Positions 1,752 through 54,645 of a DNA stretch of 64,000 nt are shown here, piece by piece. Made by a program: the position numbers and the translations under genes. Numbering within the stretch: position 1 is the stretch's first letter; every line of letters begins with the position of its first letter. Location: the NCBI GenBank assembly GCA_021555105.2, contig CP134604.1:3200501-3264500 (forward strand). Direction: 5' to 3'. Source of the DNA: Thalassospiraceae bacterium LMO-JJ14. Lineage in GTDB: Bacteria > Pseudomonadota > Alphaproteobacteria > Rhodospirillales > Casp-alpha2. The notes below the pieces were generated by a model. It was not told where the DNA came from, made no database searches, and was given only the letters and a program-made list of their open reading frames with translations.

Positions 1752-1760
1752 AAACAAGTT
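1752..1760. repeat. left target-site duplication of the IS
   Basis: AAACAAGTT lies directly outside the left inverted repeat and recurs directly outside the right one at 3773-3781. IS1595 elements usually duplicate 8 bp; 9 bp match here, so one base may belong to the element. Confidence 0.8.
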
Positions 1761-1840
1761 GGGGCTTATCCCCTTGCCATACGTTGCCATAGACGGCGGT
1801 TTTATTTGGTTGTAGCCTTCTCGCTAAAGGGGAGGCGACC

Positions 1841-2713
1841 ATGCAGGAACATGTATTCAAGCCCACAATTGTCACCTATCGCGGTCATTATGCAGATGAC
1901 CACCTTGTTGATGGGCGGGAATTGGGGAGCTCTCTTTCGGGCTTCACAAGATCAGCCAATATTATTACCAATTTTTATTTAGATGGGAAAATAAATCTTC
2001 ATTCAAATAGTCAAAAGGTTAGGTATTATGTTGGAGTACCAAAAGAAAATGGTGTATTATATGAACTAATAGCATTGATGCAGACTGGTCATTTGCCAGT
2101 TTATACTCCGGCTCTTATTGAATTAGCTTCGGAGTTCTTGCCCGTCATTTGGCGGGCAATAGTAGAGAAGTCACTAGGCCGACGGAGTGAATCAGAAGCG
2201 ATGCTGGAGATAATAAAGGAAATGGCAGAGCGCAAAGACGAGTTTGCAAGCAAAGTTCATGATGGTCATATGCGGGACAAGGCGTGGCTTCAAGACCATA
2301 TTGATCAGCTTTCTGGCAAAATGCGTACTTCACTTGAGGACGCCGCCACACCGGTTGGACGATCCGTAAAGTCAGAAAAACTATGGCCAGGACAAGAGTT
2401 TGAAACGGAAATTGATGAACAGGCGGCGGACGTACTTCGATCACGCGGTGCGGATCAGGTTGGCGACCAAGTGGATATGATTCTGCGCCTACGGGCAGTT
2501 AACCTTGATACCGGATCAGGACAAGCAGAGATTGTTGGGGAAGAGGGAAGCAAGTTGTTTGTGAAAATAACAGACCCAGCGCTTCAAACGCCGGAAAATA
2601 TATATTCACATTCTCTTGACCAGCAGACCGCTATTCACGCTACGGTTAAGCCGACGTTACGTGATGGTGAAATAGCAAAGATTTTTATTAGTGATGCCAA
2701 AGAAGCCAGCTAA
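1841..2713 (+). CDS. hypothetical passenger protein 1 of the IS1595 element
   Basis: Encodes 290 residues; no family recognised with confidence. The first 75 or so residues look like mixed alpha/beta structure (YRGHYADDHLVDGRELGSSL), residues 95-180 are mainly charged helices (SESEAMLEIIKEMAERKDEF), and residues 190-290 look like beta strands. There is no signal peptide, membrane segment or catalytic motif. The start at 1841 follows a strong AGGGGAGG site. Base composition is much more AT-rich than the chromosome. The gene lies inside the IS, and its end overlaps the next small gene by 23 bp, suggesting co-translation. A cargo function is inferred from position; what it does is unknown. Confidence 0.8.
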   Translation: MQEHVFKPTIVTYRGHYADDHLVDGRELGSSLSGFTRSANIITNFYLDGKINLHSNSQKVRYYVGVPKENGVLYELIALMQTGHLPVYTPALIELASEFLPVIWRAIVEKSLGRRSESEAMLEIIKEMAERKDEFASKVHDGHMRDKAWLQDHIDQLSGKMRTSLEDAATPVGRSVKSEKLWPGQEFETEIDEQAADVLRSRGADQVGDQVDMILRLRAVNLDTGSGQAEIVGEEGSKLFVKITDPALQTPENIYSHSLDQQTAIHATVKPTLRDGEIAKIFISDAKEAS

Positions 2714-2894
2714 GGATCAAGACAAACCCATCTCACTGTCTGCGGCCCGTAAGTCCGGAGAGATTGATCTTTTTATTAAAGAGCGAGAAGCGGAGGTCGG
2801 GGATATGGATAAGTTAGACGCGACCATCAAGAAGTCGGCTCAAACGTCGTCAAAAGCTCCGAAAGCATCTTCTCGGGACGGGTCCGACGATTGA
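2691..2894 (+). CDS. hypothetical passenger protein 2 of the IS1595 element (small, charged)
   Basis: Encodes 67 residues from GTG 2691, or 66 from the adjacent ATG. It is rich in Lys, Asp and Ser with a probably disordered tail; the middle part, SLSAARKSGEIDLFIKERE, could be helical. It starts inside the end of passenger gene 1, and its last 68 bp run antisense through the 3' end of the transposase gene, so all three genes are interlocked. No homologue recognised. The tight coupling suggests a partner of passenger protein 1, for example a small subunit or antitoxin-like protein, but that is speculative. Confidence 0.55.
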   Translation: MMPKKPAKDQDKPISLSAARKSGEIDLFIKEREAEVGDMDKLDATIKKSAQTSSKAPKASSRDGSDD

Positions 2895-3708
2895 AGCGGT
2901 ATTCAAATTCCTTGGCATACTTCGGAAGGTGTTTGCCGGAAACGTGAATGTGCGTTCCGTTGATGCCGCGCTTTAACTGCGCCCAGTAACTTTCAATACC
3001 GTTGACGCCAGCACCATCCTCGCGGGCGTATTCGCCGCGATTGTGGTTTACTTTGACGTGGCGGAAACCTGATTTGTCGATGTCCTTGTAGCCGCCAAAT
3101 TCGTCGGTCTGGAGCGTCGTTCCCGGCAGAACGTGAGTGAGGATGACGCCTTTCATAGACACCTTGTCACGACCCTTAACGACCTGAGTAACGATCTCTC
3201 CGTCACGTTCAAGCATACCGACGACACACGTTTTGTTGCCCTTGTAGCCTTGGCCCTTGCCGGAGACAGAGCCGCCGATAAGCGTTTCATCAACTTCAAC
3301 GTTGATGCCGACGCCGCCAAGCGGATCGTCGCCGTCAACTTCCGCCATATGTTCGCGGATTTGATGGCCCATACGCCAAGCGCATTTGTACGTGACGCCA
3401 AGCTGGCGCTGTAATTCCTTGGCGCTGACACCGTGTCGCGTCGTCGTAAACAAGAAGATCGCATAAAACCACAATTGCAACGGTGTCCGGGACTTCTCAA
3501 ACAGCGTCCCGACCATCGGATGGATATGGTGTCCGCACCACTGGCACGAAAAGGCACGTTCCGCCTTGATCGGATACCACTTAGCTTCCCGCTGACATTT
3601 CGGACATTCGTGGCCTTGGCCAAAACGAACGTCGAACAGGTGCTTTAAACAGGTATCGTCATCCGGGAATTTCTGGAAAAACTGACGAAGGGTGGTTGGT
3701 TTGGTCAT
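2827..3708 (-). CDS. IS1595-family (ISXO2-like) transposase
   Basis: Encodes 293 residues. An N-terminal zinc ribbon (CPKC and CQWC) is followed by an HTH-like linker (GVSAKELQRQLGVTYKCAWRM) and an ISXO2-type DDE nuclease core, with acidic residues in VEVDETLIGG and LQTDEFGGY, then HNRGEYAR and GVNGIESYWAQLKRG. These are hallmarks of IS1595. The start at 3708 (MTKPTTLRQ) was chosen because GGAG lies 8 nt upstream; an in-frame start 22 codons earlier would begin inside the terminal repeat. The gene looks intact. Its 3' end overlaps the small passenger gene in antisense. Confidence 0.9.
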   Translation of the reverse strand: MTKPTTLRQFFQKFPDDDTCLKHLFDVRFGQGHECPKCQREAKWYPIKAERAFSCQWCGHHIHPMVGTLFEKSRTPLQLWFYAIFLFTTTRHGVSAKELQRQLGVTYKCAWRMGHQIREHMAEVDGDDPLGGVGINVEVDETLIGGSVSGKGQGYKGNKTCVVGMLERDGEIVTQVVKGRDKVSMKGVILTHVLPGTTLQTDEFGGYKDIDKSGFRHVKVNHNRGEYAREDGAGVNGIESYWAQLKRGINGTHIHVSGKHLPKYAKEFEYRFNRRTRPEKMLSELLTTFEPTS

Positions 3709-3772
3709 CTCGCTATCTCCTATGCGAGTAATATACCAAATTCTATCACCGTATGGCAAGGGGATAATCCCC

Positions 3773-3781
3773 AAACAAGTT
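3773..3781. repeat. right target-site duplication of the IS
   Basis: AAACAAGTT matches the copy at 1752-1760. The sequence continues CAGGGTGACG, part of a dispersed repeat, so the IS inserted into repeat DNA. Confidence 0.8.
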
Positions 3782-3845
3782 CAGGGTGACGCCGGATATT
3801 CGAAGCGCACGTTCCCTCTTCGCGCCGTCCTCATCCTCTTTACCC

Positions 3846-20577: not shown

Positions 20578-20728
20578 CCTGCCGTCACCCCGGCGAAGGC
20601 CGGGGCCCAGAGAACAGCTGAGTTTTCCCGGTTAGTGCTGCAACGTGTGAACTGGATTCCGGCTTGCGCCGGAATGACGACAAAAATTATAAAAGCGCCA
20701 TCACCACCCTGAATCAAGTTCAGGACGA
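20578..20728. repeat. dispersed palindromic repeats
   Basis: Contains the ccggcgaaggccgg form, the ggattccggcttgcgccgga form and a ccctgaatcaagttcagg copy, in the gap between two leftward genes. Similar units occur near 1.6, 51.8 and 54.6 kb. Confidence 0.75.
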
Positions 20729-54559: not shown

Positions 54560-54645
54560 CGTCCTGAACTTGATTCAGGACCCATAATCCTCGTATCCGT
54601 CCCGGTTCGTGTCGTCATGGACCCCGGCCTGCGCCGGGGTGACGA
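54560..54645. repeat. dispersed repeats between glyS and ppdK
   Basis: cctgaacttgattcaggacc and ggaccccggcctgcgccggg copies fill most of the 120-bp gap. Confidence 0.75.

Follow-up and report, generated by a model that had tools for sequence, protein, structure and literature searches.

The window analysed here, i.e. the whole stretch of 64,000 nucleotides, contains an insertion sequence of the IS1595 family (Table 1). Judged by comparison with its relatives, this element is a two-gene core with a cargo slot, because DNA homology between such elements stops at the start of the small companion gene ORF2 and the nearest relatives carry unrelated cargo. The core would consist of the transposase and ORF2, be inherited as a block and, counted from the repeat on the transposase side, reach the start codon of ORF2 after approximately 1.0-1.07 kb. 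The slot would reach from the ORF2 start codon to the other repeat. Since new content has repeatedly taken the place of old in the slot, whereas the core and the two repeats have persisted, we consider it probable that short accessory genes are shuttled by this element.

Table 1. Features of the element and its insertion site (positions in the window).
Feature	Position	Strand	Basis
IS1595-family element	1761-3772		inverted repeats 22/23 and 9-bp target duplication AAACAAGTT
Left target site duplication AAACAAGTT	1752..1760	.	same 9-mer on either side
Terminal inverted repeat, cargo side, GGGGCTTATCCCCTTGCCATACG	1761..1783	+	22/23 complementary to 3750-3772
Cargo gene ORF1, 290 aa, DUF7946 + DUF7947	1841..2713	+	Pfam PF25678 + PF25679, phrog_5147; variable slot
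Companion gene ORF2 (putative core gene), 67 aa	2691..2894; more likely start ATG 2694	+	conservation, purifying selection
IS1595-family transposase, zinc ribbon + DDE domain	2827..3708	-	Pfam PF12762, PF12760, NCBIfam NF033547
Terminal inverted repeat, transposase side, GGGGATTATCCCCTTGCCATACG (reverse complement of 3750-3772)	3750..3772	-	
Right target site duplication AAACAAGTT	3773..3781	.	same 9-mer as 1752..1760
Leftover half of REP-like palindromic repeat (CCTGAACTTGWTTCAGG type) hosting the element	3773..3791	.	

An initial annotation of this DNA had described an IS1595 element with two passenger genes. All of its coordinates proved correct, as did the repeats with 22 of 23 matching bases and the 9-bp duplication AAACAAGTT. 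The family assignment is confirmed by three models, each over its cut-off: the DDE domain of the transposase (PF12762 DDE_Tnp_IS1595, E=2e-35, 122 bits), its N-terminal zinc ribbon (PF12760, E=7e-11, 42 bits) and the IS1595 transposase model of NCBIfam (NF033547, E=9e-60, 202 bits). The element thus combines the features that define the family, namely the catalytic domain, the zinc ribbon, the inverted repeats and a target duplication of 9 bp (8-9 bp in relatives). It also has the feature that defines a tIS, a gene dispensable for transposition inside the repeats, which is ORF1, swapped for unrelated genes in relatives. The genes had been called interlocked, and indeed ORF1 and ORF2 overlap by 20 nt, and ORF2 and the 3′ end of the transposase gene by 68 nt. 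The description of both small genes as AT-rich holds for ORF1, with a GC content of 0.449 compared to 0.609 for the window, and less so for ORF2 (0.505).

The element is inserted in a REP-like palindrome (CCTGAACTTGWTTCAGG), of which 38 copies with at most one mismatch occur in this genome, compared to none for a reversed-pattern control. In the window it is found at 1687-1703, 3769-3785, 20708-20724 and 54563-54579, and the palindrome is frequently arranged in inverted pairs about 55-60 bp apart. Because five insertions with perfect duplications (the window element and loci L026, L027, L035 and L070) share the centre of this palindrome and a 9-bp duplication of the form AACTYGWTT, our data suggest a target preference of the subgroup to which the window element belongs. 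No relative with the neighbourhood of the window was found; NapC homologues in the genus reach an identity of only about 55%, and the cytochrome c gene that comes next in the window was not found beside them. Relatives of ORF1 exist outside of IS elements, though at other loci than that of the window.

A transposase-alignment scan of named genomes delivered 80 loci, mostly from Alphaproteobacteria and some from Gammaproteobacteria and others. The census of ORF2 comprises 86 related loci, and the borders could be solved in 56 elements. Equally clean repeats with perfect 8-9 bp duplications were present in 41 of the 56, so the repeats and the duplication of the window element are more than a chance resemblance. 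With few exceptions, the transposase follows one repeat and is succeeded by a small ORF convergent with it and then, on the strand opposite to the transposase, by one or two ORFs of the cargo, before the other repeat closes the element. Two further copies with other cargo are located in the same genome as the window, one with a membrane protein (L026) and one with a trypsin-like protein (L028). An example of mobility is presented by one Hyphomicrobium genome, where two 100% identical copies of 1797 bp, comprising transposase, ORF2 and cargo, lie at two sites, and an 8-bp target duplication flanks one of the copies; core and cargo therefore move together as one unit. With a like arrangement moving in this way, the earlier view of a self-mobile element with cargo unrelated to transposition is well founded.

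Deviating arrangements were also seen. At L103, L145, L143, L179, L063, L067 and L090, ORF2 and cargo lie about 0.3-1 kb from the end of the transposase, with other sequence between. A decayed element (L127:868-1662) has retained ORF2, a single repeat and a cargo gene for a membrane protein, is without the transposase and is joined to a duplicated stretch.

The border between core and slot is visible in the DNA itself. Starting at the transposase-side repeat, homology between elements extends through transposase and ORF2 no farther than the start codon of ORF2 and is picked up again only in the cargo-side repeat. Among 55 bordered elements, not one of 413 pairwise DNA alignments oversteps the start of ORF2 by more than 5 nt, and a group of alignments between the closest pairs ends at 0 to +5 of it; most alignments end inside ORF2 through divergence, and the sharp boundary rests on about 20 closest pairs. 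L026 and L027, for instance, are 91% identical over nucleotides 1-1066, with the ORF2 start at about 1063, and their cargo is unrelated. For 55 of 56 elements, the closest relative by transposase is loaded with unrelated cargo, also where the amino-acid identity amounts to 93-96%, the clearest swaps being L026/L027 (96%) and L038/L041/L042 (93-94%). Between L021 and the window element, the DUF7946 cargo has 41% identity and the transposase only 48%. Altogether, 73 cargo ORFs fall into 59 clusters. Their GC content is lower than that of the transposase in all 54 elements compared (54/54), and by a crude hydropathy measure at least one membrane segment is predicted for the cargo of 40 of 54 elements versus 56 of 187 flanking ORFs.

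The cargo of the window element, which the initial annotation could not match to a function, can be assigned to named families. ORF1 matches PF25678 (E=2.5e-23, 83.5 bits) and PF25679 (E=9.5e-16, 58.1 bits), both with a curated cut-off of 27 bits, as well as phrog_5147 (E=1.1e-12). A search with a peptide pattern of ORF1 in plasmids and genome contigs retrieved no relatives; these were found by family-based searches. Among 385 genomes of the class, six are over the cut-off of the family search, and besides the window three of the six have the gene adjoining an IS1595 transposase (L021, L022 and L023). Copies without such a transposase within 1.5 kb are L002 and, from a phylum-wide search, L030 to L033. 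An AlphaFold2 model from six distant DUF7946 sequences reached a pLDDT of 41 and was not used for a fold search.

Further relatives of this family are found on diverse mobile DNA. Gene 40A of phage phi80 (L223:3459-4325) is a homologue of ORF1 with 25.6% identity over 94% of the length and a profile E-value of 5e-40; its record is labelled 'acetate kinase superfamily domain', and it is really a DUF7946 protein, as which NCBI names the counterpart in E. coli EPI300. It is located between cI and pL, directly downstream of cI. In lambda, the place between cI and pL is occupied by the rexAB exclusion genes. The slot where phi80 has DUF7946 is filled, in a related prophage of E. coli, by the gene of the toxin YafO. 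Other relatives were detected in a Helicobacter prophage, as a single-gene cassette in an array on a Vibrio plasmid with VCR-like repeats on either side (L222:2000-7400), and adjoining traA and mazF on a Paracoccus plasmid. On account of these phi80, integron, plasmid and prophage contexts, we tentatively suggest that the DUF7946/DUF7947 cargo protects its carrier, most likely as a phage-exclusion gene; for 40A, a likeness to rexAB is suggested by position only. It is similarly conceivable, though again short of an even chance, that the cargo is a metabolic or regulatory passenger, or neutral. ORF1 matches no enzyme or defence model, with no hit of the window protein to PADLOC models up to E=1, and standalone copies reside in ordinary chromosomal places, as in L002, where two ribosomal-protein-like genes flank it on one side and a desaturase-like gene on the other. 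However, mobile protection genes typically show such a distribution, which here takes in a lambdoid lysogeny slot, an integron cassette, a plasmid and IS cargo. Our literature search returned no published account of DUF7946, of PDC-S42 or of exclusion by phi80 40A.

Some cargo of sister elements matches PADLOC candidates such as PDC-S42, and the comparison of DUF7946 with PDC-S42-like cargo by hhalign gave E=9e-5 at 59% probability, which is below the usual confidence. An enrichment of defence genes in the cargo was considered and dropped: several PADLOC matches were obtained among 66 cargo ORFs, and the numbers in the control of flanking genes were comparable. The trypsin-like cargo of the sister copy in the same genome (L028:2673-3686) shows weak PADLOC matches to PDC-S45 and LmuA; its end, HKEDFNRLLNAAASDRKEGSET, resembles the core motif of ORF2, perhaps by fusion.

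ORF2 had been listed as the second of two passenger genes. This classification stands for ORF1, and ORF2 has to be separated from it: as it recurs beside the transposase in elements whose cargo is unrelated, the comparison identifies it as a core gene of the element and not as cargo. With a profile begun from five ORF2 sequences, 80 of the 86 related loci were found to have a homologue lying opposite the 3′ end of the transposase gene. In three of the other six the contig is cut at the transposase end (L065, L079 and L100), L102 has a weak broken match only, L110 is short and without cargo, and L028 is the copy whose cargo C-terminus resembles ORF2. Searched alone against 289 genomes, the profile gave 14 matches, 12 of them beside an IS1595 transposase, one in the decayed element L127 and one spurious. 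Both plasmid members of the clade carry ORF2, which is absent from their annotation tables. In viral contigs, the best 16 loci by score (L137-L152, with transposases at least 46% identical) all possess it; farther off it fades or is truncated. Six IS1595 elements of more distant relationship, among them IS1595 itself and ISAcr1, gave no ORF2 match with the profile.

The long form of the protein approximates to MSRGKYLSLEEARKxGKLDxFxKEHPSEGDxxxFDRLLxAMA, and the short form retains the FDRLLxAM part alone. ORF2 matches no Pfam, NCBIfam or PDB family: 30 ORF2 proteins gave scattered weak matches to unrelated families only in Pfam and NCBIfam, the window protein had no PADLOC match up to E=1, ORF2 and DUF7946 profiles had no meaningful match among PDB sequences, and the libraries searched contained no known relative or motif that would name a function. 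The predicted structure consists of three short helices only (pLDDT 75). Purifying selection acts on the region outside the transposase overlap, where dN/dS is below 1 in 211 of 214 pairs; L026 and L027 present pN 0.07 and pS 0.49. The overlap with the transposase varies between 32 and 191 nt, and in most elements the cargo stop and the ORF2 start overlap or are at most 20 nt apart, -4 and -1 being common.

These data bear on three other explanations of ORF2. The first is that ORF2 or its DNA marks the junction for the capture of cargo, as an attachment or recombination signal. This would agree with the very frequent swapping of cargo and with the fact that the closest pairs lose their homology at the start codon of ORF2. 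However, selection for an intact ORF2 and intact repeats could explain the break as well, and the conservation concerns the protein, with many changes being silent, for which a protein is a better fit than a DNA site; we therefore regard such a junction as rather unlikely. Still less probable is that no working protein is made and that the conserved stretch is a transcription-end signal or a by-product of the opposite strand of the transposase, with the antisense RNA alone being of importance. Many C-terminal tails of ORF2 are indeed antisense to the conserved transposase end, over 32-191 nt, and the convergent layout is nearly universal in the clade, but outside the overlap the N-terminal part shows good conservation and a dN/dS far below 1, and L090, L103, L145, L063 and L067 keep the ORF2 motif without any overlap with a transposase. 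Finally, the cargo pair proposed initially, in which ORF1 and ORF2 would function together on an ordinary IS1595 element, for example as toxin and antitoxin, did not hold up and is highly improbable: both genes lie on one strand with the 20-nt overlap and would be co-transcribed, but relatives of ORF2 occur with largely unrelated cargo and track the transposase, homology breaks at the ORF2 start, nothing marks ORF1 and ORF2 as a dedicated toxin-antitoxin-like pair, and the annotation of the phage, plasmid and cassette contexts contains no ORF2-like neighbour of DUF7946.

As a core gene, ORF2 would best be explained as an accessory to the transposition module, a small protein that likely regulates the transposase or partners with it. 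That it acts on transposition or on transposase expression has, from sequence comparison, about an even chance of being correct. ORF2 would be read from the cargo mRNA, and its start, which usually overlaps or adjoins the end of the cargo gene, points to translational coupling; the cargo transcript is expected to run antisense into the transposase 3′ end. Because of the position of ORF2 on the cargo mRNA and of this antisense transcript, cargo expression and transposition are probably tied to each other, and transcription and translation of the cargo may set the ORF2 level. A more far-reaching and somewhat unlikely idea is that of a large unrecognised clade of two-gene transposons swapping single accessory genes in a fixed slot, in which ORF2 is made only upon translation of the cargo and the element would thereby sense and spread its cargo, as a gene-cassette system built from an IS.

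Passengers of insertion sequences are usually regarded as occasional accidents. Here one clade is nearly always loaded, in one slot, and has one additional conserved gene. Should ORF2 prove to govern transposition or the capture of cargo, a DDE transposition system would gain a new component, and the slot would lend itself to the search for unknown accessory genes, of which many code for small membrane proteins. The DUF7946 cargo also offers a testable lead; the phi80 DUF7946 region is present, and identical, in laboratory strains of the DH5alpha, DH10B and EPI300 type.

A conserved companion gene with a fixed cargo slot in IS1595 elements was not described in the literature searched, to which the 2009 paper on the IS1595 family did not belong. 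Passenger-carrying elements of this family (tIS) are known (Siguier, Gagnevin and Chandler 2009, via PMC12888890). The window element shares with them the IS1595 transposase, the inverted repeats, the target duplications of 8-9 bp and passengers inside the repeats; unlike them, as far as the title of the 2009 paper allows a comparison, cargo is present in nearly all members of one transposase clade, in one slot and with a shared ORF2. IS1595 of Xanthomonas citri and ISAcr1 possess a transposase of the same family (about 31-32% identical), but are without ORF2 according to the profile search, and the X. citri copy has no annotated cargo opposite the transposase. Gene 40A of phi80 is a homologue of ORF1, but belongs to a prophage lysogeny region, in whose annotated neighbourhood neither an IS1595 gene nor ORF2 is found. 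In transposons of the Tn3 family, toxin-antitoxin genes are part of the transposition module, as outlined in PMC7157771. Their transposase is unrelated and ORF2 is a single gene without a toxin or antitoxin match, but, going by that outline, both systems have in common that an extra small gene keeps with the transposase as the cargo varies.
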